Assembly (NCBI RefSeq): GCF_025340265.1
Contig: NZ_CP022707.1
Span: 1,736,501-1,800,500, forward strand
Source of the DNA: Novosphingobium sp. 9
Lineage (GTDB): Bacteria > Pseudomonadota > Alphaproteobacteria > Sphingomonadales > Sphingomonadaceae
Reading direction: 5' to 3'
DNA: 64,000 nucleotides
Shown piece by piece: positions 28,618 through 42,507 of the stretch (positions within the stretch are counted from its first letter, which is position 1; each line of letters opens with the position of its first letter). The notes under the pieces were generated by a model that was given only the letters and a program-made list of their open reading frames with translations, had not been told where the DNA came from and did not search any database. The translations under genes were made by a program, and so were the position numbers.

Positions 28618-29700
28618 ATGCGCTGCCTGTTTTTTAGGCACGCTGGTTACAAAATGTCCAATTATCCGATTTCGCCCGAATTGAAGCCGATCATGGTCGG
28701 TCCGGTCCAGATCGACTGCCCGGTCGTGCTGGCGCCGATGACGGGCGTTTCGGACTTGCCGTTTCGTCGGATGGTGCGCGCGTTCGGTTCTGGCTTGAAT
28801 GTCACCGAGATGATCGCGAGCCCAGCGGCGATTCGCGAAACGCGTGTGTCGTTGCAAAAGGCGATGTGGGACAAGGTCGAAGACCCGGTCTCGATGCAGT
28901 TGGTCGGCTGCGATCCCGAGCAGATGGCCGAGGCAGCGAAACTGGTCGAGGATCGCGGAGCGGCGATTATCGACATCAACATGGGGTGCCCGGTTCGTAA
29001 GGTCGTCAACGGCGATGCCGGTTCCGCGCTGATGCGTCAGGTTCCGCTCGCGACCAGACTGATCGAGGCAACCGTGAAGGCGGTAAAGGTGCCGGTGACG
29101 GTCAAGATGCGTATGGGGTGGTGCCATGACAGCCTGAACGCACCGGAACTCGCTCGTATTGCCGAGGATCTGGGCGCCAAGATGATTACCGTCCATGGGC
29201 GCACTCGTAACCAGATGTATAAAGGAAGCGCCGATTGGGCTTTCGTGCGCCGCGTGAAAGATGCGGTCTCGATCCCCGTGGTTGTCAATGGTGACATCTG
29301 CACGATCGCGGACGCAGCGCAGGCGCTGGAGCAGTCCGGGGCAGACGGCCTCATGATTGGGCGTGGTGCCTACGGTCGTCCGTGGTTTCTTGCTCAGGTC
29401 ATGCAGTGGTGGCGTGGTCAGTCGGTTGACGCAGATCCGACTGTGGCAGAACAGTACGAGATCATTCGCCGTCACTATCAGGACATGCTCGACCACTATG
29501 GTGAAGACACCGGCGTCAAGATGGCGCGCAAGCATCTGGGTTGGTACATCAAGGGTGTTCGAGGCTCGGCGGAATTCCGGAACAAAGTGAACTTCATTCA
29601 GGACGCGGATGCCGTTCTGCGTGAGCTTGAAGCATTCTACGCTCCATATTGTGGGGGCAATGAGGTGGGTGAGCTGCCGGATGACTTGCGGGCTGCATGA
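28618..29700 (+). CDS. dusB: tRNA-dihydrouridine synthase (DusB/NifR3 type)
   Basis: FMN enzyme reducing specific uridines of tRNA to dihydrouridine with NADPH. Signatures are [20 protein letters not shown], the catalytic cysteine in [23 protein letters not shown] and [13 protein letters not shown]. The start at 28618 has GAGAAGGG at ribosome-binding distance; the ATG at 28654 ([10 protein letters not shown]) gives the usual family length and cannot be excluded. Its stop overlaps ntrB by 4 bp, and dusB (nifR3) directly before ntrBC is a long-known alphaproteobacterial arrangement. Confidence 0.93.
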
Positions 29701-30842
29701 CGCCGCTGGTCCGTACGCCCTCGTTGCCTGAAGCGAGCCGGATGCTCGCCAGTCTGCCGCAGGCAGTGGTCCTGCTGGAGCCGGGCTTGCGGATCGCGTC
29801 GGTCAATCCGGCGGCCGAGCAATTCTTTGGTCAGTCGCAGCGCCGCCTTTCCGGGCAATCGCTGGATGCGGTGATGGAACTGACGGATCCGCGCCTTGCA
29901 GAGCGCTTGCTTGATTATGAAACGCCTCTGAGTGCGCGCGAGATCGCCGTCAATCTCAGGGGGCGGGGGCAGCGCCGGATAGACATAAATCTTGCGCCAT
30001 TGGCGGACACGCCGGGCTGGCAGGTGCTGGCGCTGCACGACAACAGTCCGGCTGAAGCTCTTGGAGAGGATTCGGGAACTGCGGACAACGCCGTGTTGCG
30101 CGGTCCGGAAATTATTGCGCACGAGATCAAGAACCCTCTCGCAGGCATTCGCGGCGCGGCGCAACTGTTGGCCCGCAAGCTTGATGATCGCGACCGGGCG
30201 CTCACCGATCTGATCACCGGGGAGGTCGATCGAATTGCGACGTTGATCGAGCAGATGCAGAAATTAAGCCGACGCACGGTTGCGCCGGTGGAATCCTGCA
30301 ATTTGCATATTTCCGCACGGCGTGCCGTCGATGTGATCGAAGCCGCCTGTGCCGGACGTGGTGAACCGCTAAAAATCGTTGAGGAATTCGACCCCTCCTT
30401 GCCATCGGTTCTCGGCAGCCCGGATGGCTTGGTGCAGGTCATCATCAACCTTCTGTCGAATGCGGTTGAAGCCTGCCGTGATGTATCGGGGGCTCGCGTA
30501 GCCATCAGATCCCGTTTCGCAAGCGGTTTGCAGCTTCACACGACCGATGCGGGAGTTCCGCTGCGCCTGCCGATTGAATTGCGGGTGACGGATAATGGTC
30601 CCGGCGTAGACGGATCCATGCGCGAACATATTTTCGAGCCGTTCGTAACGACGAAGAAGAGCGGGCAGGGATTGGGGCTTCCGCTTGTACGTAAGCTGAT
30701 AAGAGACATGAATGGGCGTATCAGTCATGAGCGCGACGAAGATCGTGGTCTTACCCATTTCCGGGTCCATTTGCCGCTGGCACTGGATTTTTCAGGCGAG
30801 CACGTGAATCACGGAGTGTCCGGAAAGAAAGATCGATCATGA
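29697..30842 (+). CDS. ntrB: Nitrogen regulation sensor kinase NtrB
   Basis: Cytoplasmic histidine kinase/phosphatase that controls NtrC according to PII signalling, hence nitrogen status. The 381-residue protein has an N-terminal PAS domain (about 15-115), the phosphorylation site H142 in [10 protein letters not shown], then the HATPase with N-box [11 protein letters not shown]1 box DNGPGVD and GQGLGLPLV. No transmembrane segments are seen. ATGA overlaps join it to dusB and ntrC. The phosphoacceptor context matches NtrB rather than NtrY. Confidence 0.95.
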
Positions 30843-32254
30843 GTATTCTGCTCGTCGAGGACGACATGTCCATCGCCATGGTCATAACTGCGGCCCTTGA
30901 GGCCGAAGGATTGACGGTCACGCATTGCGCGACCCTTGCCGAGCGCGATCGCTTGCTGGTGTCGGATTGCTTCTCGGCGTTGGTGACAGATGTCATGCTG
31001 CCTGACGGTGACGGCATCGAGAGTTTGGCTCGTGTGCGAGAAGTGGCGTCTTCTCTTCCTGTTATCGTGCTTTCGGCGCAGAATACTCTTGATACGGCTG
31101 TTCGCGCCACTGACACGGGGGCTTTTGAGTATTTTCCCAAGCCGTTTGATATCGACGAACTCGCAAGAACGGTGCGGCAAGCTGCGGAAACATCCGTCGG
31201 CAGCATGCTGGGTGAGGACGAGCCGCTGGCCGAGGGGGTGCCGCTGGTAGGCCGCAGCCCGGCGATGCAGACCGTGTTCCGCATGATAACGCGCGTTCTG
31301 CGTAATGATCTGACGGTGCTGATCCTTGGTGAATCAGGTACGGGCAAGGAACTCGTCGCCGAAGCTATCCATCAGCTAGGTCATCGCCGGGAGGGGCCTT
31401 TTGTCGCCGTCAACACTGCGGCGATCCCTGCGGATCTGATCGAGAGCGAACTGTTCGGGCACGAAAAAGGGGCTTTCACCGGGGCGGTTTCGCGTCATGT
31501 CGGGAAGTTCGAACAGGCGGCCGGCGGCACGCTTTTTCTCGATGAGATTGGCGATATGCCGATGCAGGCACAGACACGGCTGCTCAGAGCATTGCAGTCC
31601 GGTTCGATTCGCCGGGTCGGCGGACGCGAGGAGGTGATTCTCGACGTGCGCATCATCGCTGCGACGAACAAGGATCTGGAACCCGAAATTGCGGCTGGCC
31701 GTTTCAGGGAGGACCTCTATTATCGTCTGAATGTCGTGCCGATCGTGACGCCGCCGTTACGTGAGCGACGGGATGACATCGATGTATTGGCGCGCCATTT
31801 CCTGCAATTGGCAGCTGGAGAAGGGTTGCCGCGCAGGCAGTTGACGACGCAGGCAATAGAACTGCTGCGCCAGCAGCCCTGGCGGGGTAACGTCCGTGAG
31901 TTGAAGAACTTCATCTATCGTCTTGCGCTGTTGGCGCGCGAAGACCTGGTGGACGTTGATGGGCTTGCGCCGTTATTGACGCAAGAGGCAGCGCAATCCG
32001 CGAACGGGGACCCTGGCGCACTTGGCATTGATGATGCTGTGTATCTGTGGTTGACTCAGGAGCAGCCGACAGCAGGGACAATTTATGTCCGTGCCATGGC
32101 AGCCTTCGAACGGCCCTTATTCGCACAAGTGTTACGTGAGACCGGCGGCAACCAACTGCGTGCGGCAAGCGCACTCGGTATAAATCGCAATACATTGCGC
32201 AAGCGCCTCGGCGAGTTGGCTCTGGATCCGGAGGAGTTTGTCCGTCGTCCCTGA
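30839..32254 (+). CDS. ntrC: Nitrogen regulator NtrC, sigma-54 activator
   Basis: Response regulator and enhancer-binding protein activating sigma-54 promoters under nitrogen limitation. The 471-residue protein has a receiver domain with phosphoacceptor D51 (VTDVMLPDGDG), an AAA+ domain with Walker A GESGTGKE, the sigma-54 contact loop GAFTGA, Walker B GGTLFLDEIGDMP and arginine fingers in RFREDLYYRLNV, and a C-terminal Fis-type helix-turn-helix (RAASALGINRNTLRKRL). All parts are intact. It overlaps ntrB by 4 bp. Confidence 0.97.
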   Translation: MSILLVEDDMSIAMVITAALEAEGLTVTHCATLAERDRLLVSDCFSALVTDVMLPDGDGIESLARVREVASSLPVIVLSAQNTLDTAVRATDTGAFEYFPKPFDIDELARTVRQAAETSVGSMLGEDEPLAEGVPLVGRSPAMQTVFRMITRVLRNDLTVLILGESGTGKELVAEAIHQLGHRREGPFVAVNTAAIPADLIESELFGHEKGAFTGAVSRHVGKFEQAAGGTLFLDEIGDMPMQAQTRLLRALQSGSIRRVGGREEVILDVRIIAATNKDLEPEIAAGRFREDLYYRLNVVPIVTPPLRERRDDIDVLARHFLQLAAGEGLPRRQLTTQAIELLRQQPWRGNVRELKNFIYRLALLAREDLVDVDGLAPLLTQEAAQSANGDPGALGIDDAVYLWLTQEQPTAGTIYVRAMAAFERPLFAQVLRETGGNQLRAASALGINRNTLRKRLGELALDPEEFVRRP

Positions 32255-32302
32255 TGCGCGGGCTACGGATTTTCTCTTGCCGTTAAGCAACAGCAGTGTT
32301 GT

Positions 32303-34543
32303 ATGATGGCAACGATGGATGAGCTTACCGTTCATAAACGCGCCTGGCCGCGCTGGTGGCGACGAATGCAAGTCGTAGCCCGACGCGCAAACCTGTTCGC
32401 CGTGATTGCCGTGATCGCAATTGTCGCCTTCCTGGTGATGACAGCGACCACTTGGTACGCGCTCACGTCCAATGCCGATAACGGCAAGTTGCTGCCGTCC
32501 GATCTTACGGCGAGCCTGCTGGTCGGGACGCTCGTTCCGGCGTTGACGATTCTGGTGCTGTTCGGGCGCCGCATGGCGCTTCGCCGTGCGCAGGAGAGTA
32601 TCGGCGGCACCGGTTTGATGCACGTTCGGCTGGTCTTCTTGTTTTCGTTGATATCTGCCATCCCGACGCTGCTTGTGGTAGTGTTCGCGTCATGGCTGTT
32701 CCAGTCCGGCGTGGAATTCTGGTTCTCTGACAGTTCACGCGGCCTTTTGGAGAATGCCAACAAACTGGCCTTGGGATATTACGACCAGGCACGGCGCGAT
32801 GTTGGGTATCAAACGGTTGCGATGGCGCAGGATACGCGCATCATGCTGAACGAGAACGCGGTTGCCAGTCCCACTTTTCAGGCGTTTCTGGCTGATGCGG
32901 TGCTGCGCCGTAATCTGTCGATGGCTGCCATTGTTCAGGTTGATGCCGATGGCAAACAGCGAACCCCGATCATCGTCGATCCTGACAGGAAAGGGCAGGA
33001 GCAGCGGATCACCAAGGATGAGCTTGCCCAGCTTGACAGGGGCGAGCCTATGGCGACGGCATCTAACGCAAACCGGATCGTTGCGGTTGCCCCGATCGAG
33101 CGTGAGCGTGGCATCTATCTATATACAGCCCGCGCATCTGATCTTCTGGCGCTCAGTCAGGGGCAGCGCGCAGAGAACATCGTGCAGGCTTACGAGGTTC
33201 TGACTAATCGCGCCCGAGTGCTCCAGTTGCGGTTCAATGTCGCGCTGTTCATTGCCTCGCTGGTTTTGGTTGGGCTTTCAATATGGTTTGCGCTGCGATT
33301 TGCTGACCGGCAGGTCAAACCACTCTACGAACTGGTCGATGCTGCACGACGGGTCGGTGCAGGTAACTATGCCTTGCGGCTTGAAGGGCGCACGGGGGCA
33401 GACGAGATCGGGCTGCTTAATCGGGCATTCAATCGCATGACCGCGCAGATCGACAAGCAGACGCAGGATCTCCTGAGCGCGAACCGTGAGCTGCACGAGC
33501 GTAGCGTGTTTATCGAAGCGGTGCTCGAATCGGTGACATCGGGCATTGTCTCGCTCGATGCGGCAGGGGAAGTCCTGCTGATGAACTCGATGGCGCAGAA
33601 GTTGCTGAGTCAACCGGGGGCTGAGGTTGAATTCGTGGGGCGGCACCTTGCTGAAGTGGCTCCGCAGATCGCCGCTGTTGTGGAACAGGGGAACGCCGGG
33701 GGACTGGTTCAATACAGTCGAGGCGGGGATCTGCTTACGCTGGCAGTGAAGACCAGTCGCGATGTGACCGGCCATGTCATCACCTTTGAAGATATCACGC
33801 GACAATTGCTGGATCAGCGCACGGCCGCCTGGTCGGATGTCGCGAGACGCATCGCGCATGAAATCAAGAATCCGCTAACGCCTATACAGTTGGCGACAGA
33901 GCGTTTGAGCCGCCGTTATCGTAAGCAGATCACCGATAATCCGGAATTGTTCGAGGACCTGACCCGAACGATCATTCGTCAGGTCGGCGATTTGCGGAAA
34001 ATGGTCGATGAGTTCTCCTCTTTCGCGCGATTGCCGAAGCCCGTTTTTCGCGCTGAAGACCCGGTCGCCCTAACCCGGCAGGCCTTGTTTCTCCAGGAAA
34101 TTGCGCGCCCCGATATCGAGTTCGAGTTCGCCAGCGATTCAGAACTTGGCTCGATCGATTGTGATCGGCATCAATTCGGGCAGGCCATGACCAATGTTCT
34201 CAAGAATGCGGTTGAGGCTATCGAGGCAAAGGCAGCGCAGATCGGTGAGGGATATCGCGGCCTGATTGCAGTTGCCGTCGATGGTCTTCCAGGCTCTGCC
34301 CGTGTCCGTATTCGTGACAACGGCATTGGCCTTTCGCAGGATCGCGAACGGATCATCGAGCCATATGTCACTACGCGGGAAAAGGGCACCGGCCTTGGTC
34401 TCGCTATCGTCAACAAGATTATCGAGGAGCACGGTGGGGAGATGACCTTCCTGCCTGCGGTGGGCGGAGGCACTGAAGTGGTGATGCGCTTCGCGACCGA
34501 TCCGCTTCTCGCCACTCGCAAGCCGGAGGCCATCGACGTATGA
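32303..34543 (+). CDS. ntrY: Transmembrane nitrogen sensor kinase NtrY
   Basis: Membrane-bound histidine kinase, partner of NtrX in alphaproteobacteria, connecting nitrogen, redox and envelope signals. The 746-residue protein has several N-terminal transmembrane helices (about 35-58, 73-90, 105-128 and about 308-330) enclosing an extracytoplasmic region, a HAMP domain (LRFADRQVKPLYELVDAARR), a PAS domain (about 400-495), the H-box [20 protein letters not shown] and an HATPase (NVLKNAVEAI, DNGIGL, GTGLGLAIV). The start at 32303 lacks a clear ribosome-binding site; ATG at 32315 is an alternative. Confidence 0.95.
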   Translation: MMATMDELTVHKRAWPRWWRRMQVVARRANLFAVIAVIAIVAFLVMTATTWYALTSNADNGKLLPSDLTASLLVGTLVPALTILVLFGRRMALRRAQESIGGTGLMHVRLVFLFSLISAIPTLLVVVFASWLFQSGVEFWFSDSSRGLLENANKLALGYYDQARRDVGYQTVAMAQDTRIMLNENAVASPTFQAFLADAVLRRNLSMAAIVQVDADGKQRTPIIVDPDRKGQEQRITKDELAQLDRGEPMATASNANRIVAVAPIERERGIYLYTARASDLLALSQGQRAENIVQAYEVLTNRARVLQLRFNVALFIASLVLVGLSIWFALRFADRQVKPLYELVDAARRVGAGNYALRLEGRTGADEIGLLNRAFNRMTAQIDKQTQDLLSANRELHERSVFIEAVLESVTSGIVSLDAAGEVLLMNSMAQKLLSQPGAEVEFVGRHLAEVAPQIAAVVEQGNAGGLVQYSRGGDLLTLAVKTSRDVTGHVITFEDITRQLLDQRTAAWSDVARRIAHEIKNPLTPIQLATERLSRRYRKQITDNPELFEDLTRTIIRQVGDLRKMVDEFSSFARLPKPVFRAEDPVALTRQALFLQEIARPDIEFEFASDSELGSIDCDRHQFGQAMTNVLKNAVEAIEAKAAQIGEGYRGLIAVAVDGLPGSARVRIRDNGIGLSQDRERIIEPYVTTREKGTGLGLAIVNKIIEEHGGEMTFLPAVGGGTEVVMRFATDPLLATRKPEAIDV

Positions 34544-34591
34544 TCTCCCTCGCTCATGCCTTTCCCCCCAAGCACATCGAGAAATTCCCCC

Positions 34592-36001
34592 ATGGCTCTT
34601 GATATCCTGATCGTCGACGACGAGCGCGACATCCGCGAGCTGGTCGCTGGCGTCCTGAGTGACGAAGGTTACGAATGCCGTACCGCAGGCGACAGCGTCG
34701 CGGCATTGGCGGCCGTTGATGCACGCCGTCCGTCACTGGTTCTGCTCGACGTATGGCTTCACGGCAGTCCAATGGACGGGCTCGAAATCCTTGATGCGAT
34801 CAAGGCGCGGGAGCCTGAGTTGCCGGTCATCATTTTCTCTGGGCATGGCAACATCGACACCGCAGTCGCTGCGATCAGCCGTGGTGCGATGGATTTCATC
34901 GAAAAACCGTTCGAGGCTGAGCGCCTTTTGCACCTTGTCGGGCGTGCGACCGAGACTGAGCGCCTAAGGCGCGAGAACCAGCAACTGCGGCAGGATTATT
35001 CCGGCAACGAGGAATTTACCGGCTCCAGCAGTGCGATCAATCAGGTGCGAGCCACGCTGAAGCGGGTAGCGAACACCGGAAGCCGGCTGCTGATCACCGG
35101 ACCTGCCGGCTCGGGCAAGGAAGTGGCTGCACGCATTCTCCATGCGTGGTCGCCGCGAGCTAACAATGCCTTTGTGAGCGTCAATTCCGCGCGGATTACG
35201 CCTGAGCGTTTCGAGCAGGAGTTGTTTGGGGAGGAGGCTGATGGCGCGCTTATTCGGCCTGGTCTTCTTGAAATGGCCGATGGTGGAACACTTTATTTCG
35301 ATGAAGTGGCCGATATGCCGCTCTCTACTCAGGCGCGAATCCTGAGGGTGCTGACGGATCAGGCGTTTGTGCGCGTGGGTGGAACGCGGCAGATACGCGT
35401 CGATGTTCGGGTGGTCTCCTCAACCTCACGCGATCTGGAGAAGGAGATAGCCGAGCGGCGGTTCCGCGAAGATCTATTCTATCGTCTGAACGTCGTGCCA
35501 ATCGCTATCCCCGCCTTGCGTGAGCGGCGCGAAGATGTTCCGGCACTCATCGATCACTTCTTCGCGCGCTATGCCAGCGAGCAGGGCGTCATCCCGCCGC
35601 TTGTAAGCGCTGAGGCGATGACGGCGCTTCAGGCGTATGAGTGGCCCGGCAACGTTCGGCAGTTGCGCAATGTCGTTGAGCGGACAGTTATTATGGCGCC
35701 GCGGGAAAAGCTGGAGGAAATCTCCGCTGACATGTTGCCGCCGGAGATTTTCAGTACTCGCAGTCAGGGCGATTCAGGTATGTCAGTCATGATGAGCGCT
35801 CCCTTGCGCGAGGCTCGAGAAAGCTTCGAGCGCGAGTATCTTAAGGTGCAGATCCGCCGATTTTCGGGGAATATCTCGCGTACAGCGTCTTTTATCGGCA
35901 TGGAGCGTTCAGCCTTGCATCGAAAGCTCAAGCTGTTGGGTATGTCCGAAAGGCGGGAGGGCGAACTGGAAGGCGATGAAGAAGGCCCGGTCGAGACGTA
36001 A
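34592..36001 (+). CDS. ntrX: Response regulator NtrX
   Basis: Partner response regulator of NtrY, 469 residues. It has a receiver domain with phosphoacceptor D53 (VLLDVWLHGSPMDG), an AAA+ region (Walker A-like TGPAGSGKE, Walker B GGTLYFDEVADMP, FREDLFYRLNV) and a C-terminal Fis-type helix-turn-helix (TASFIGMERSALHRKLKLL). The sigma-54 contact loop GAFTGA is absent: the region reads FGEEADGALIRPGLLE. NtrX proteins of alphaproteobacteria often lack the loop and act on sigma-70 promoters. Start at 34592 (MALDILIVDD) because upstream residues are not family-like. Confidence 0.95.
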   Translation: MALDILIVDDERDIRELVAGVLSDEGYECRTAGDSVAALAAVDARRPSLVLLDVWLHGSPMDGLEILDAIKAREPELPVIIFSGHGNIDTAVAAISRGAMDFIEKPFEAERLLHLVGRATETERLRRENQQLRQDYSGNEEFTGSSSAINQVRATLKRVANTGSRLLITGPAGSGKEVAARILHAWSPRANNAFVSVNSARITPERFEQELFGEEADGALIRPGLLEMADGGTLYFDEVADMPLSTQARILRVLTDQAFVRVGGTRQIRVDVRVVSSTSRDLEKEIAERRFREDLFYRLNVVPIAIPALRERREDVPALIDHFFARYASEQGVIPPLVSAEAMTALQAYEWPGNVRQLRNVVERTVIMAPREKLEEISADMLPPEIFSTRSQGDSGMSVMMSAPLREARESFEREYLKVQIRRFSGNISRTASFIGMERSALHRKLKLLGMSERREGELEGDEEGPVET

Positions 36002-36135
36002 CCGCCTGGGACAATTTTACCCGTTTACTGCATTGCAGCAAGGAGGTAGCTTTTCGCCTCCAACGGTCCAAGTGGGTAGCACGGGCCAGATTGCGGACCG
36101 CATAGGCGGCTGCCAAAAAGAAGGAGAATGACGAG

Positions 36136-36720
36136 ATGGCTGGTCGTACGCTGACAGCACGTCCGAAATCCGAGCCTGCAGCGCAGGAAGCGACTGCCGC
36201 CGCGCCGGCTGCAGCAACCCCGGTAAGCGCCGGATCGTCTGCTGGCAAAGGGCAAAATCTTCAGGACCAGTTCCTGAACCTGCTGCGTAAGAACAAGACA
36301 CCTGTCACGATGTTCCTTGTCAAGGGTGTGAAGCTCCAGGGTATCGTGACCTGGTTCGACAATTTCTCGATCCTGCTTCGCCGTGACGGACAGTCGCAGC
36401 TGGTTTACAAGCATGCGATCTCGACGATCATGCCTTCGACTCCGGTCGATGTGAACCAGTTCGGTGGTCCGGAAAGCGCCAAGAAAACGCGCGTGCTTCA
36501 GGATGTGTTCCTGTCCAGCATTCGCAGTGCGAGCGTGCAGGTGACCATGTTTCTCATCAACGGCGTCATGCTTCAGGGGCGCGTTGCCGCGTATGACCTG
36601 TTCTGCATGCTGCTGGAGCGCGAGGGCTACGTTCAGCTGGCTTACAAGCATGCTGTATCGACCATCCAGCCGGTTACACCGGTCGATCTGCAGGCGCACG
36701 AAGAAGCGCAGGACGACTGA
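36136..36720 (+). CDS. hfq: Tandem-domain RNA chaperone Hfq
   Basis: Hfq with two complete Sm-like domains in one 194-residue chain, twice the usual size. After an Ala/Pro-rich leader (1-38), domain 1 spans about 39-101 and domain 2 about 118-179. Both keep the proximal-face QD pair (Q43-D44, Q122-D123), the aromatic F78/F156 and the YKH triplet (91-93, 170-172) that bind U-rich sRNA ends. They differ elsewhere: the distal-face Lys of GVKLQG in domain 1 is Met in domain 2 (GVMLQG), and the basic rim RKNK of domain 1 is RSAS in domain 2. Three chains could form a pseudo-hexamer. Located between ntrX and hflX as usual. Confidence 0.95.
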
Positions 36721-36750
36721 ACTGGCATTTCAGAAAAAAGCTGACCGGCA

Positions 36751-38088
36751 TTGACAGATGAATTGAAGGGCGAGGTCACGCGTGGCGCGCGTGTCCTCGT
36801 GGCCTATCCGCAAATGCGCGGGCCGCGTGGCCCTGTGAGCGATCTCGACACCGAAGCGCGCCTAGAAGAAGCGCGTGGCCTTGCGCTGGCGATCGGCCTG
36901 GAAGTCGTCGAAGCGATGGCAATCCCGATCCGAGAACCGCGTGCGGGCACGCTCTTTGGCGAAGGGCAGATTCAGAATATTTCTGCAGCCTGCCAATTGA
37001 ATGAGGCTGAGCTGATTATCGTTGATGGTGCGTTGTCGGCCATTCAGCAGCGCAATCTTGAGGAGAAGCTCAAGCGCAAGGTCATCGATCGTACCGGGCT
37101 TATTCTGGAGATTTTCGGTGAGCGCGCGGCGACGGCGGAAGGCCGCCTCCAGGTAGAACTCGCGCATCTCGATTATCAGGCGGGGCGTCTTGTGCGCAGT
37201 TGGACGCACCTTGAACGCCAGCGCGGTGGTTTCGGGTTCCTTGGTGGTCCAGGTGAAACCCAGATCGAGGCGGATCGCCGCATGATCCGTGATCGCATGG
37301 CGAAGATCCGCCGCGAGCTGGAGCAAGTGCGCCGTACGCGGGGGCTGCACAGGGATCGTCGTGAGAAGGCTCCCTGGCCGATTGTCGCGCTTGTCGGTTA
37401 TACCAATGCGGGTAAGTCCACGCTATTCAATCATCTGACCGGCGCAGAGGTGATGGCGCAGGATCTGCTCTTTGCGACGCTCGACCCGACAATGCGGGCG
37501 GTGCGCCTGCCAGCGGTAGAAAAGGCGATCCTGTCGGATACGGTAGGGTTCATTTCCGATCTTCCGACGCAGCTGGTTGCCGCCTTCCGTGCAACGCTGG
37601 AGGAAGTGACCGCGGCTGACGTCATTCTGCATGTGCGCGATATCGCCAATCCCGATACTGACGCACAGAAACGGCAGGTGCTCGATGTGCTGGCTGATCT
37701 TGGTGTGTTACCTGACGAGGATAGTAACATTGACGGGGCGATCCCGATTATCGAGGTCTGGAACAAGTGGGATTTGCTGAGCCCCGAACGCGTAGCTGAA
37801 CTGGAAGATGCGGTTGAGCATCGCCCCGATGAAACCATCGTTCCGCTATCGGCGCTGACTGGAGAGGGCTGTGACAGGCTGCTCGATGTGGTTGGTCACA
37901 GGCTTACAGTGGATGCGAAAGTCTATACATTCCTGATTTCGGCAGGTGACGGACAGCGCCTTGCTTATTTGCATGCGCGCGGGCAAGTCCTAAGCGAGAC
38001 CGATGGAGGCGAAGGGCCTGAAGGCCCCATGCTCCGTATCGAAGTGCGTCTGACAGAGCGCGAGTTAGGCCGTTACCGTTCGCTCTGA
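36751..38088 (+). CDS. hflX: GTPase HflX
   Basis: Ribosome-binding GTPase that splits stalled or heat-stressed ribosomes. The 445-residue protein has the N-terminal HflX domain (ALSAIQQRNLEEKLKRKVID, then RTGLILEIFGERA), the signature RGGFGFLGGPGETQIEADRR, and the G domain with G1 GYTNAGKST, G3 DTVGFISDLP and G4 NKWD. The start appears to be TTG at 36751; no ATG or GTG gives a complete N-terminus. The hfq-hflX order is conserved. Its 3' end overlaps the convergent mazG by 24 bp. Confidence 0.95.
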   Translation: MTDELKGEVTRGARVLVAYPQMRGPRGPVSDLDTEARLEEARGLALAIGLEVVEAMAIPIREPRAGTLFGEGQIQNISAACQLNEAELIIVDGALSAIQQRNLEEKLKRKVIDRTGLILEIFGERAATAEGRLQVELAHLDYQAGRLVRSWTHLERQRGGFGFLGGPGETQIEADRRMIRDRMAKIRRELEQVRRTRGLHRDRREKAPWPIVALVGYTNAGKSTLFNHLTGAEVMAQDLLFATLDPTMRAVRLPAVEKAILSDTVGFISDLPTQLVAAFRATLEEVTAADVILHVRDIANPDTDAQKRQVLDVLADLGVLPDEDSNIDGAIPIIEVWNKWDLLSPERVAELEDAVEHRPDETIVPLSALTGEGCDRLLDVVGHRLTVDAKVYTFLISAGDGQRLAYLHARGQVLSETDGGEGPEGPMLRIEVRLTERELGRYRSL

Positions 38089-38871
38089 TCGTTTGACGGC
38101 CTGCCAATACTGCTCTTGTTCGTCCAGAGTGAGTATGGCGAAGTCATGGCCGTCCTCGCTGGCGAACTGTTCCATCGAGCGAAAGCGCCGCTCAAACTTG
38201 GCATTGGCCGCACGCAAGGCGTCTTCCGGGGCAATACCGTTGAGGCGCACGAGATTGACGGCTGCAAACAGCAGGTCTCCAGCCTCTTCCAGCTTTTCTT
38301 CAGGAGAGGCCTCGGCCAGTTCGGCGACTTCTTCAGCAACTTTGGCCGCCGCGCTGTGGGGTTCGGGCCAGTCGAAGCCCACGCGTGCCGCACGCTTCTG
38401 CAGCTTTTCTGCACGCATCAGGGCAGGGAGGGTCACGGCAACGCCATCAATCGCGCTGGTTTCTCCCTTTGCTTCCCTTTCGGATGCTTTGATCTCTTCC
38501 CAGCGCCGATGTATGCCTTCAACATCGAGCTGGTCGTTCACGTCACCGAAAATATGTGGGTGGCGGCGTTCCATCTTGTGTGAAATCGCGGCGGCAACGT
38601 CAGCGAAAGCGAATGCGCCGCGTTCTTCCGCCATGCGTGCATGGAAGACGACCTGAAACAAGAGGTCTCCCAGTTCGTCACGCAGTGAAATGAGGTCGTC
38701 ATGAGCGATGGCTTCGGCGACTTCGTAAGCTTCTTCTATTGTGTAAGGTGCAATCGTCGCGAATGTCTGTTCGCGGTCCCACTCGCATCCGGTCTCGGGA
38801 TGGCGCAGGCGGACCATGATGGCCAGTAGACGAGCGAGTTCCTGATCCGGTGTACGGTTCGTCGCGGCCAT
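38065..38871 (-). CDS. mazG: Nucleoside triphosphate pyrophosphohydrolase MazG
   Basis: Housekeeping enzyme hydrolysing (d)NTPs to monophosphates and pyrophosphate. From the ATG at 38871 (MAATNRTPDQELARLL) the protein has 268 residues and two MazG domains: the first with RHPETGCEWDREQTFATIAP and EEAYEVAEAI-LRDELGDLLFQ, the second with KVAEEVAELAE and EEAGDLLFAAVNL. The ExxE and ExxD metal-binding motifs are present in both. The frame is open upstream to 38934, but that part is not family-like. Convergent overlap with hflX. Confidence 0.94.
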   Translation of the reverse strand: MAATNRTPDQELARLLAIMVRLRHPETGCEWDREQTFATIAPYTIEEAYEVAEAIAHDDLISLRDELGDLLFQVVFHARMAEERGAFAFADVAAAISHKMERRHPHIFGDVNDQLDVEGIHRRWEEIKASEREAKGETSAIDGVAVTLPALMRAEKLQKRAARVGFDWPEPHSAAAKVAEEVAELAEASPEEKLEEAGDLLFAAVNLVRLNGIAPEDALRAANAKFERRFRSMEQFASEDGHDFAILTLDEQEQYWQAVKRSERTVTA

Positions 38872-39013
38872 CGGGAAACTCCGGTTGAGATGTGAACAGG
38901 AAACCAGGCTACCCGTCCAGATGCCTATGAGCAACGTGTGCGATACTGTTGCGCACAGGAAGCGGTTGACGGCGCGTGGCGATGCTCTAGATCAAGTGGA
39001 ATTATGGGTCATC

Positions 39014-39055: not shown

Positions 39056-39832
39056 ATGGCTACCGCTACCGAAGACAAGCCCGAAATCGAAGTGAAGGGC
39101 ACGCAGACGCTGATGCGTGCGCTTGATATTCTCGATGAAGTGATTGATGGTCCGATCCGCGCCGTTGATCTGGCACGTAAGCTGGGAATGAGCAAGACGA
39201 CGGCGCATCGCCTCGTTCATGCTCTGAAATCCCGCGGCTATCTTTCGGTGACGCGCGAGGGTTTCGGGCTGGGGCCGAAACTGCTTGAACTTGGCGTGAT
39301 GGCAACCGAACAGATTGACTATGTACAGGTTGCGCGCCCGTTCATGGAGCGCTTGTCCGAGGAGACGGGATTCTGCGTTTTCGTGGGCAAGCGCGAAGGC
39401 GACTGGTCTCGACATCTCGATCGCGTGACCGGCCGTCAGCGCCTTCGTGTTGCCACCGCGCCGGGGGATCGCCGTCCGATTGCCGAGACGGGGCTCGGCA
39501 AGGCGCTGCTGTTTGACGAGGATGAAGCGACTTGGGAAGCGCTCTACCGTCAGGCGAACGATGGCAAAATCTCATCCGCACGGCTGAAGGCGTGGATGGA
39601 GACTATGCGAAGGCACCACGCCCGTGGGTATGTCTTTCACGATAGCGAACTGGGCGACGGCGTGCGATCGATCGCAGTACCAGTGCGCGATGCTAAGAAG
39701 GAGGTCGCGATCGCGATTTCCATTGCCAGTGCCGCGCATTATCTTACCGACGATATCGCTGATGCGCTGATTGCCAAGGTGGTGAAGACGGCGGCCGAAA
39801 TCAGCGAGGCGGTGGGGTTCCGGGTTCGCTGA
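39056..39832 (+). CDS. IclR family regulator of the pectin locus
   Basis: A 258-residue IclR-type regulator, probably functionally like KdgR, which senses a keto-deoxy-gluconate intermediate. The winged helix-turn-helix spans about 15-75 (TLMRALDILDEVIDGPIRAV then MSKTTAHRLVHALKSRGYLS); the rest is the effector domain (ETGFCVFVGKREGDWSRHLD, then VRSIAVPVRD). It is convergent with kdgK and adjoins kduD/kduI, and a copy of the locus-wide palindrome lies just upstream. Ligand and repressor/activator mode are inferred. Confidence 0.9.
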   Translation: MATATEDKPEIEVKGTQTLMRALDILDEVIDGPIRAVDLARKLGMSKTTAHRLVHALKSRGYLSVTREGFGLGPKLLELGVMATEQIDYVQVARPFMERLSEETGFCVFVGKREGDWSRHLDRVTGRQRLRVATAPGDRRPIAETGLGKALLFDEDEATWEALYRQANDGKISSARLKAWMETMRRHHARGYVFHDSELGDGVRSIAVPVRDAKKEVAIAISIASAAHYLTDDIADALIAKVVKTAAEISEAVGFRVR

Positions 39833-39836
39833 TCGT

Positions 39837-39851
39837 GGCGCTACTAGCGCC
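39837..39851. terminator. Short hairpin between convergent iclR-type gene and kdgK
   Basis: GGCGCT-ACT-AGCGCC overlaps the kdgK stop and follows the regulator stop by 4 bp. The stem is short (6 bp) and lacks a T run, so its role is tentative. Confidence 0.4.
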
Positions 39852-40857
39852 GGACGTCGAGACTGCCTTCCATAAAGGCCATGAGATCCTTGATTCCGAA
39901 CAGGCTCGCGTCTCCGGGGAGGCTGTGCTTGAGCGCAGCTACCGCAAGGCCGCTGCGAGCGATGTTTTCGAGATCGTCCGGGGCGGCTGAAAGCAGGCCG
40001 TGAAGCACACCCGTCGCGAAAGCGTCGCCGCCGCCAATCCTGTCGATGATTCCCGTTATCGACAGTTCCTCGGTCTGGACATGCTGTGTCGGCGTATCGA
40101 GACGCGCCGCCAGTCGGTGGTGGTCCGCATCAATGAGGTGTCGCGCCGTGGAGGCGATCATCGAGAGGTTCGGGAAAGTCTTGAAAGCGGCAAGAGCGGC
40201 GTCGCGGCGACGCTCGGGGCCGTCGCCGGAGAAAGTCTGGCCCAGCAGCAGCGAGATATCGCGATGGTTGCCGAACAACACGTCGGCCTGGCTGACCAGT
40301 TCGGTCAGCGTTGTGCGCGGGTCGCTGTCCCAGGCTTCCCATAGCCGAGCACGGTAATTGCCGTCGAAGATCACTTTCATGCCTTTGGCGTGCGCGGCCT
40401 TGGCTGCGGTGATTGCTGCCTGAGCAGGGCCAGCGCCCAGCGCTGGCGTGATGCCTGACAGGTGTAACCAGTCCATGCCATCCAGCAGGGCATCCCAATC
40501 CCAGCTTTCCGGGGCGGCGCATGCAAAGACGCTGTTTGCCCGGTCATAGACAATTTCGGATGACCGCAGGCTTGCACCGGGCGTCAGGAAGTAGAGGCCC
40601 ATACGCCCCGGCTCTCGCCGAAGGCCTTCACAGTTCACGCCGGCACCGCGCAAGGCTGCGAGCGCGGTATCGCCGAGGCCGTCATCCGGAATCAGGCCGA
40701 TCATACTGGTGGAATGCCCCAGACTGGCAAGGCCGATCGCGACATTGGCCTCTGCCCCACCGACATGCAGGTCAAGGCTGGTCGCGGTACGCAGCAACGT
40801 CCGTCCCGGAGGCGAAAGGCGGCAGAGAAGCTCACCAAAGCAGGCGATGCGAGTCAT
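39844..40857 (-). CDS. kdgK: 2-dehydro-3-deoxygluconokinase
   Basis: Phosphorylates 2-keto-3-deoxygluconate to KDPG, the last step before the Entner-Doudoroff aldolase. The 337-residue PfkB-family kinase has the N-terminal GELLCRLSPPG, the di-glycine substrate signature HVGGAEANVAIGLASLG, DGNYRARLWE and the anion-hole/catalytic GGGDAFATGVLHGLL with its catalytic Asp. It is the last gene of the minus-strand series kduI-kduD-kdgK, 37 bp after kduD. No KDPG aldolase gene is in the window. Confidence 0.92.
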   Translation of the reverse strand: MTRIACFGELLCRLSPPGRTLLRTATSLDLHVGGAEANVAIGLASLGHSTSMIGLIPDDGLGDTALAALRGAGVNCEGLRREPGRMGLYFLTPGASLRSSEIVYDRANSVFACAAPESWDWDALLDGMDWLHLSGITPALGAGPAQAAITAAKAAHAKGMKVIFDGNYRARLWEAWDSDPRTTLTELVSQADVLFGNHRDISLLLGQTFSGDGPERRRDAALAAFKTFPNLSMIASTARHLIDADHHRLAARLDTPTQHVQTEELSITGIIDRIGGGDAFATGVLHGLLSAAPDDLENIARSGLAVAALKHSLPGDASLFGIKDLMAFMEGSLDVRR

Positions 40858-40894
40858 CGTAACGGTATCCGGTCAGACAATGTGGACAGACCTC

Positions 40895-41650
40895 TTAGCG
40901 CGCAAGCCATCCGCCGTCGACTGCCAGCACTTGTCCTGTGACATAGTCGGAGGCCTGAGAGGCGAGAAATACCGCCGCGCCGGCAATGTCTTCTGGGCGT
41001 CCCCAGCGGCCTGTGGGAATGCGCTCCAGAATCTGGCGACTGCGTGTTTCGTCAGCTTGTAGCGCGGCAGTGTTGTTGGTGGCGATGTAGCCCGGCGCAA
41101 TGGCATTGACCTGCACGCCGCGCGGCGCCAGTTCGTTTGCCATTGCCTTGGTCACGCCGCCGACACCGGACTTGGCGGCAGCATAGCTTGGTACGCGGAT
41201 GCCGCCCTGGAAGGTCAGCAGCGAAGCGATGTTGATGATCTTCCCCGCACCCCGCTCGGCCATGCCCCTGGCAGCGGCCTGACTGAGGAAGAACAGCGTC
41301 TTGAGATTGGTGTCGATGACCGCGTCCCAGTCCTCTTCGGAGAACTGGAGCAGGTCGTCGCGGCGGATGATCCCGGCGTTGTTGACGAGAATGTCGATGC
41401 GCCCCAGCTCTGCGACGGTCTCATCGACGACGCGCTGGACTGGAGCGATTGTGGAGAGATCGGCCCTGATGTTAACGGCCTTGCGTCCGGTCGCGGCAAT
41501 TTTCTCCAGCGTTTCGGAAGGTTCCGAGCGCCCCGCGACGGCAACGTCGGCACCGGCCTCGGCAAAGGCGACCGCGATCGCCTGTCCGATACCCGTATTG
41601 GCGCCGGTGACGAGCGCCGTCTTGCCGGTCAGATCGAAGGATATGGCCAT
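40895..41650 (-). CDS. kduD: 2-dehydro-3-deoxy-D-gluconate 5-dehydrogenase
   Basis: Short-chain dehydrogenase reducing 3-deoxy-D-glycero-2,5-hexodiulosonate to 2-keto-3-deoxygluconate. The 251-residue protein shows the dinucleotide motif TGANTGIGQAIA, NNAGIIRRDDLLQFSEEDW, the serine in ASLLTFQGGIRVPSY and the catalytic YAAAKSG. The RRDD and FQGG/VPSYAA stretches are characteristic of KduD among SDRs. Start at 41650 (MAISFDLTGK); the frame is open farther up, inside kduI. It follows kduI after 23 bp. Confidence 0.92.
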   Translation of the reverse strand: MAISFDLTGKTALVTGANTGIGQAIAVAFAEAGADVAVAGRSEPSETLEKIAATGRKAVNIRADLSTIAPVQRVVDETVAELGRIDILVNNAGIIRRDDLLQFSEEDWDAVIDTNLKTLFFLSQAAARGMAERGAGKIINIASLLTFQGGIRVPSYAAAKSGVGGVTKAMANELAPRGVQVNAIAPGYIATNNTAALQADETRSRQILERIPTGRWGRPEDIAGAAVFLASQASDYVTGQVLAVDGGWLAR

Positions 41651-41673
41651 GTCCTGTCCTCTTGCCCGAATGC

Positions 41674-42507
41674 TTACTTGAGCTGGCAGATGTCGAGGAC
41701 GTTCATGTCCGTATAATCGAGGTTCTCGCCACCCATCGCCCAGATGAAGGCGTAGGACTTGGTGCCCGAACCCATGTGGACGGACCACGGCGGCGAGATC
41801 ACGGCTTCCTCGTTCTCGATGACGATGTGGCGCATCGCTTCGGGCTCGCCCATGTAGTGGAACACGCGGTCGCCGCCCTGCAGATCGAAGTAGAGGTAGA
41901 TCTCGCTGCGACGGTCGTGGAGATGCGGGGGCATCGTGTTCCACACGCTACCGGTCTCCAGAACGGTCAGCCCAAGCAGAAGCTGCGCGCTTTCGCACAC
42001 GCCGGGGATGACCAACTGATAGATCGTGCGATGGTTGGAGTTGGCCAGATCGCCGCGCTCCAGCGGGTTCGCCTCGGCCAGCGTGATCTTCTTGATCGGG
42101 CACACCTTGTGGGCCGGAAGCGAGGCAATGTAATAGCGCGCTTCGGCGCCTTCGAAGATGACCTCGTTCGTGCCCATCGGCACGTAGAGGCACTCCTTGT
42201 TGCCCATTTCGTATCGCGTACCGTCAACGACAATCGCGCCGGGGCCGCCGATGTTGACGATGCCAGCCTCGCGCCGTTCGAGGAAGGGGTGGCCCTTGGC
42301 CGAGGCGGGCTCGCTCTGTTCCGGCAGCTTGATCGAGCCGCCAGCCGGAACCGCGCCGCCGATCACGAAACGCTCGTTATGAGAGTAGTTCAGGCAGACT
42401 TTGCCGGGCTCGAACATGCTGCCAACCAGATAGCGATCGCGCAGGTCCTCATTGTCGACGCACTGCATCATGTCGGGGTGCGTGGCGTGATAGGTCTTCT
42501 CAAACAT
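41674..42507 (-). CDS. kduI: 5-dehydro-4-deoxy-D-glucuronate isomerase
   Basis: Zinc-dependent cupin-fold isomerase converting 5-keto-4-deoxyuronate from unsaturated galacturonate into 3-deoxy-2,5-hexodiulosonate. The 277-residue length is standard. Zinc ligands equivalent to those of E. coli KduI are in place: H195, H197, E202 ([15 protein letters not shown]) and H244 (PPWSVHMG). Further family signatures are [15 protein letters not shown] and YIASLPAHK. It starts the kduI-kduD-kdgK series, with a candidate IclR site 67-83 bp upstream, at the end of the transporter gene. Confidence 0.96.

Follow-up and report, generated by a model that had tools for sequence, protein, structure and literature searches.

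A two-domain Hfq in Novosphingobium sp. 9 and the conserved asymmetry of its domains

The DNA analysed here, a 64,000-nucleotide stretch of Novosphingobium sp. 9 (contig NZ_CP022707.1, positions 1,736,501 to 1,800,500; hereafter the window), carries at 36136-36720 an hfq gene of the two-domain form, in which two Hfq domains, termed D1 and D2, follow one another in a single chain (Table 1). The Pfam Hfq model PF17209 matches this open reading frame in two stretches (185.9 bits, cut-off 27), and the NCBIfam equivalog model for two-domain Hfq, NF010691/PRK14091, scores 296.4 bits against a cut-off of 270 over residues 24-194, confirming the proposal of a first-pass annotation, made from the sequence alone, that one chain holds two complete Hfq domains. 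The organism's genome gave a single Hfq match (expectation value, E-value, ≤ 0.001). The hfq coding sequence has undergone an internal tandem duplication in this gene, which encodes the organism's sole detected Hfq.

Table 1. Features of the two-domain hfq locus, in window coordinates; "pos" gives E. coli numbering.
Feature	Coordinates	Strand	Remarks
hfq, two-domain form	36136..36720	+	ATG start, stop codon counted in; 194 amino acids
N-terminal extension, residues 1-41	36136..36258	+	TLTAR motif, then low complexity; sequence reading
Hfq domain 1 (D1), residues 42-104	36259..36447	+	rim R51 K52 K54; distal K63 (pos 28), K66 (pos 31); PF17209 and alignments
Linker, residues 105-120	36448..36495	+	parsed between matches of the hidden Markov model
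Hfq domain 2 (D2), residues 121-183	36496..36684	+	rim R130 S131 S133; distal N142 (pos 28), M145 (pos 31); PF17209 and alignments
D2 further residues	within 36496..36684	+	L155 (pos 41), E161, Q178 (pos 63); alignments
Acidic C-terminal tail, residues 184-194	36685..36717	+	...HEEAQDD; the chain's only acidic tip; putative role by comparison with passages of PMC6561178
ntrX, upstream neighbour	34556..36001	+	NCBIfam NF051870, 742 bits
hflX, downstream neighbour	36751..38088	+	NCBIfam TIGR03156, 441 bits

In the window's own chain, the residues picked out by that annotation are present: Q43-D44 and Y91-K92-H93 on the proximal face of D1, Q122-D123 and Y170-K171-H172 on that of D2, a rim of R51-K52-N53-K54 against R130-S131-A132-S133, and a distal K66 against M145. 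The rim and distal differences have turned out to be conserved across the family, while the replacement of the first Arg of the D2 RRDG loop by Glu161 had been overlooked. In E. coli numbering, used for positions from here on, the Sm2 motif YKH, the proximal residues Q8/D9 and F42 are found in both domains. Set against canonical six-fold Hfq, with a basic rim and Lys31 in every Sm domain, D1 conforms and the window's D2 (rim R S A S, Met31) does not.

The two-domain form dominates the family Sphingomonadaceae. Among 397 family genomes from 91 genera, 395 of which had an Hfq match, classes assigned by E-value and counted by hand gave 345 two-domain genomes, 43 single-domain genomes in 14 of the 91 genera, six divergent genomes of one small-genome genus (g88), which parse as two-domain, and one gene cut by a contig end. 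The first-pass annotation had held that single-domain hfq in related genomes would mark the fusion as an assembly artefact; by score, 14 genera do lack the fusion, but with most sampled family genomes (345/397) carrying two domains, an artefact in the window's genome is ruled out as its source. Parsing of 138 loci, including the window's own, gave 96 two-domain loci (84 outside g88, 12 within) and 42 single-domain loci, 12 from other families and 30 in-family; among these 30, L040 is in truth a two-domain gene truncated at the end of its contig, with Lys28 in its D1. A locus in the window's genus (L039, G001:C66) is N-masked across most of D2, and so seems a broken match.

Three overlapping draws of genomes from beyond the family yielded no two-domain Hfq among the matches listed: 61 genomes from elsewhere in the order (60 of which gave a match), 112 from elsewhere in the class (97 with matches) and 97 extra-family genomes of a phylum draw (64 with matches). 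Wherever a listed alignment from these genomes extends past about query residue 117, a point still ahead of D2, it does so solely by crossing stop codons (e.g. G475, G518, G603). In a set of 50 named loci with hfq, which overlaps the main set (L158 looks the same as L065), 11 are two-domain, including Sphingomonas melonis, Croceibacterium soli and Sphingopyxis bauzanensis; of the 80 loci among the matches listed, the first 13 are sphingomonad loci, two of which (L149, L158) have single-domain Hfq.

The two domains differ most sharply on the distal face. Counting loci outside g88 unless stated, and with one D2 masked (83 readable), D1 has both Lys28 and Lys31 in 84/84 loci, and D2 combines the ancestral Asn28 with Met31 in all 83. 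Single-domain Hfq has Asn28 in 41 of 42 loci, the exception being the cut gene, and Lys31 in all 42; in the named set, N28/K31 occurs in 39/39 single-domain loci and the fusion pattern in 11/11 two-domain loci. D1 is otherwise a normal alphaproteobacterial Hfq domain, Lys28 being the exception. As D1 gains Lys28 where D2 loses Lys31, the charge at 28 and 31 per six domains is six before and after the fusion, so that the distal lysines are redistributed rather than just lost, with six to a ring in both cases. The earlier statement that D2 has lost its distal lysine is thus correct for Met31, but missed the lysine that D1 has gained at position 28, K63, in place of the Asn of single-domain Hfq. 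In g88, D1 Lys28 and D2 Asn28 are found in 12/12 loci, and Met at D2 position 31 in 8/12. Both domains are strongly diverged in six of these 12 loci (L046, L050, L053, L055, L072, L074), examples of divergence in the genus being H57Q in D1 of two loci and the loss of D2 Q33 in seven of the 12.

On the rim, the charge at positions 16, 17 and 19 is +3.00 in single-domain Hfq and in D1 (84/84), and averages +0.45 in D2 (83 loci). The claimed loss of the basic rim from D2 is better described as a reduction, since Arg16 is retained in 64 of 83 loci and the full charge in eight. The first Arg of the D2 RRDG loop is Glu in 60/83 loci, and other D2 residues recur: Leu41 (80/83), Ala37 (75/83), Ala38 (76/83; in the named set 5/11, with Gly in six), Cys43 (79/83) and Gln63 (84/84). 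The D2 proximal face keeps Q8 (83/83), D or E at position 9 (83/83), F42 (82/83) and YKH (84/84), and Y55-K56-H57, Q52, F25, G29, V30, L32, Q33 and T61 are kept in D2 of all readable loci. Asn41 is not kept; the window's D2 has Leu155 in its place, so that of the proposed intact proximal face in both domains the QD and YKH residues stand, but the D2 pocket is not fully intact.

The phylogenetic evidence indicates that the fusion arose once, within one family, with single-domain genera branching below it. In a tree of NtrX and HflX (91 rows, 14 of them with less than half of the 872 columns filled), a single branch, with a Shimodaira-Hasegawa-like approximate likelihood ratio test (SH-aLRT) value of 99, separates the 56 two-domain rows from the rest, and beneath this clade 22 in-family single-domain rows branch off as a grade. 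A FastTree run with more rows gave the same branching order, the sole single-domain label inside the two-domain group being L040, the cut gene. In a tree of the domains themselves (65 columns), a branch with support 100 sets D2 apart from all else. No such branch sets D1 apart (two changes), the outgroup does not separate cleanly, and most forks lack resolution. Position 24, which is Val in 12/12 Hfq proteins of other families and Met in 29/30 in-family single-domain proteins, 77/84 D1 and 82/83 D2, suggests that D1 and D2 both descend from the family's own Hfq. Neither a loss of the fusion nor a case outside the family was seen in the sampled genomes, and repeated gains or losses are unneeded on this sampling, which yields one clade. 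The D1/D2 residue pattern makes its first appearance on the same branch of the family tree as the fusion.

The linker, which replaces the tail of D1, measures 9-16 residues in 83 of the 84 two-domain loci outside g88 (11 or 12 in 58) and 46 in one, probably the locus with the masked D2 (L039); its net charge ranges from -3 to +2. After D2 the net charge is negative in 93 of all 96 two-domain loci. In Caulobacter Hfq, passages of PMC6561178 describe an acidic tip packing onto rim residues R18/K19, with the tip of an adjacent monomer shown on the rim, and in E. coli, models give the tails sufficient length to get to adjacent rims, with no contact to K31 (part of PMC5606850). By the Caulobacter geometry, each D2 tip would be expected to dock on the rim of an adjacent D1, which is the chief rim that is still basic.

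An AlphaFold2 model of one chain (predicted template modelling score, pTM, 0.82) shows D2 as a complete Hfq fold, and gives the linker block means of 75 and 65 in the predicted local distance difference test (pLDDT). A three-chain alternating ring is consistent with this model. The best explanation of the observations is probably that three chains close one alternating D1/D2 ring of six domains, with a six-fold pore, rims and lysine pairs on D1, and D2 tails guarding. A flexible linker, as modelled, would also suit two homotypic rings, with six chains joining a D1 hexamer to a D2 hexamer, but a length of mostly 11-12 residues (58/84) would seem short for bridging rings, and the pTM suggests definite packing of D1 on D2 within one chain; we consider such paired rings very improbable. 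An RNA-binding hexamer of D1 only, with D2 appended on the outside, would fit the retention of canonical RNA-contact residues by D1 alone. It is nonetheless improbable, as outside g88 D2 retains the Hfq residues listed above, is under purifying selection, and takes a complete Hfq fold in the model.

In the three-chain alternating ring, U-rich 3' ends would bind the proximal pore, which to judge from its residues would largely still be six-fold, while RNA annealing would fall to the basic rims of the three D1 domains. Distal A-rich contacts would be made via the Lys28/Lys31 pairs on D1, with none on D2 and six lysines per ring, and the three D2 tails would guard the three neighbouring D1 rims. 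Both the fusion and the D1/D2 residue pattern have been maintained at the sequence level by purifying selection since their origin. In part of a molecular dynamics paper (PMC8121710), residues 28 and 31 contact RNA through the backbone, which would leave general charge as a possible role for their lysine side chains. Support for a partnership of Hfq with small RNAs in sphingomonads comes from SuhB in Sphingopyxis granuli, as described in passages of PMC6563040. A more specific reading, that the fusion has produced an obligate pseudo-six-fold machine, with a fusion-fixed register, rim sites and paired distal lysines on every second subunit, one tail per active rim, and a charge-conserving swap from position 31 to 28, is offered tentatively, as a possibility somewhat short of an even chance.

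Several points weigh against these readings. Loss of the D2 rim is uneven, as the eight loci with full charge show, and relaxed constraint fits this as well as a positive role does. Because K28 and M31 arose on the same branch, their coupling amounts to one event, beyond statistical testing. The net charge after D2 is 0 or +1 in 3/96 two-domain loci, and some linkers are mildly acidic (to -3). Of five AlphaFold2 models in all, two scored poorly (mean pLDDT 52.6 and 43.1), and the prediction is of a single chain only. The two-domain node of the FastTree run has a printed support of 0.229; this may be a label moved by re-rooting, and the single-clade claim therefore rests on the tree with SH-aLRT 99. 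Finally, replacement of K31 by M may have little effect, since K31A in E. coli alters just 4.8% of genes, even if small-RNA chimeras fall almost 4-fold (according to part of PMC12262471).

A rival possibility is that the three-chain ring does form, but that its asymmetry is mere relaxed constraint, D1 charge having freed D2 to lose its own with no gain of function. D2 rim positions 17 and 19 are diverse, with no single replacement residue, the mild effect of K31A in E. coli (same passages of PMC12262471) points the same way, and the g88 domains drift further, including the seven loci without D2 Q33. Against this stand the fixation in D2 of N28 and M31 (83/83) and Q63 (84/84), the prevalence of L41, C43, A38 and A37, and the gain of K28 by D1 in every locus. 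Moreover, across the 19 loci of the window's genus, median ratios of nonsynonymous to synonymous substitution rates (dN/dS), with saturated-dS pairs dropped, are 0.064 for D1 (167/171 pairs) and 0.065 for D2 (160/171). Both domains are thus under purifying selection, and the equal ratios argue that D2, far from being free, is subject to a constraint of a new kind. Five diagnostic positions, compared in 84 loci of which one is partly masked, gave no sign of gene conversion between D1 and D2. On balance, mere relaxation is rather unlikely.

Two-domain Hfq in sphingomonads, which the first-pass annotation believed to have been noted before, has been in print since 2010, when a paper on Zymomonas mobilis hfq (PMC2877685) reported, in the passages concerned, two Sm-like domains for ZMO0347, a departure from most bacterial Hfq, counted six other Sphingomonadales species as likewise exceptions, and asked whether a hexamer needs only three chains, to be tested structurally. 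Both the two-domain form and the three-chain idea were therefore already known. ZMO0347 and NF010691 share the architecture of the window's Hfq; those passages of PMC2877685 differ from the present analysis in that they do not deal with domain residue differences, a single origin, or single-domain relatives in the family. Two hfq-like copies in Novosphingobium aromaticivorans are noted in part of PMC3474761, which cites its reference 43. No paper on the residue differences between the two domains was found in literature searches limited to open-licence papers. The reference 43 behind the two-copy statement is probably Sun et al. 2002. The fusion is real, well conserved and already described; as far as the searches show, what is new here is the single nested origin, the fixed redistribution of lysines, and the one-sided rim with its matching single tail.

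Tandem-domain BMC-T shell proteins, with a duplicated ring domain per chain, form trimers as a pseudo-hexamer with two kinds of subunit; the arrangement is like that of two-domain Hfq, but fold and function are unrelated. Eukaryotic Sm/Lsm heteroheptamers are rings of non-identical Sm domains with specialised positions, and differ in having seven separate chains instead of one duplicated chain. These complexes are named in a passage of PMC2877685. Caulobacter crescentus Hfq (PDB 6gwk, PMC6561178) is the closest solved structure by sequence and fold comparison, with the same fold, rim and short acidic tail, but with one domain per chain, six identical rims and tails, and Asn28 and Lys31. In structure searches with the AlphaFold2 model, chains among the matches listed cover one half of it only.

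Five proteins of 241-248 amino acids (P0044, P0063, P0121, P0122, P0123), on contigs of 791-1621 bp, apparently have three Hfq domains with D1/D2 hybrids. For a third domain, 397 family genomes were searched with one of these proteins (388 with a match), and the matches listed reach residue 173 of its 245 at most, leaving out G434, G459 and G462 (two matches each). The longest exact DNA word common to D1 and D2 measures 37 bp in one genome; in g64, the nearest genus, it measures 22 bp. Such sharing makes assembly chimeras the likely source; the three-domain proteins are probably such chimeras, and possibly real recombinants.

Both ntrX and hflX lie in the same DNA piece as hfq in 93 of the 96 two-domain loci. 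Within 29697-38934 of the window, hfq is preceded by ntrB/ntrC-like genes (PAS/HisKA kinase, sigma-54 response regulator), ntrY (Pfam NtrY_N) and ntrX, and is followed by hflX and a MazG-family gene. An IclR regulator, a pfkB sugar kinase, a short-chain dehydrogenase and a KduI-family isomerase adjoin one another at 39056-42507, a set which we take to resemble a uronate catabolism cluster. The N-terminal extension begins with the motif M-x(1-6)-TL[STAR]xR in 50/58 loci from that half of the two-domain clade to which the window belongs, but in 0/38 of the other two-domain loci.

How many active rims and distal sites Hfq requires is hard to test, because a mutation in six-fold Hfq hits all six subunits; with the natural fusion, alternate subunits can be altered, and members of the family that have single-domain Hfq offer a clean comparison. 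The fixed lysine swap and the matching of tail to rim lead to specific, testable predictions. If the two-domain Hfq is indeed a pseudo-six-fold machine, its rim and distal RNA binding would be three-fold, and its U-tail pore six-fold.
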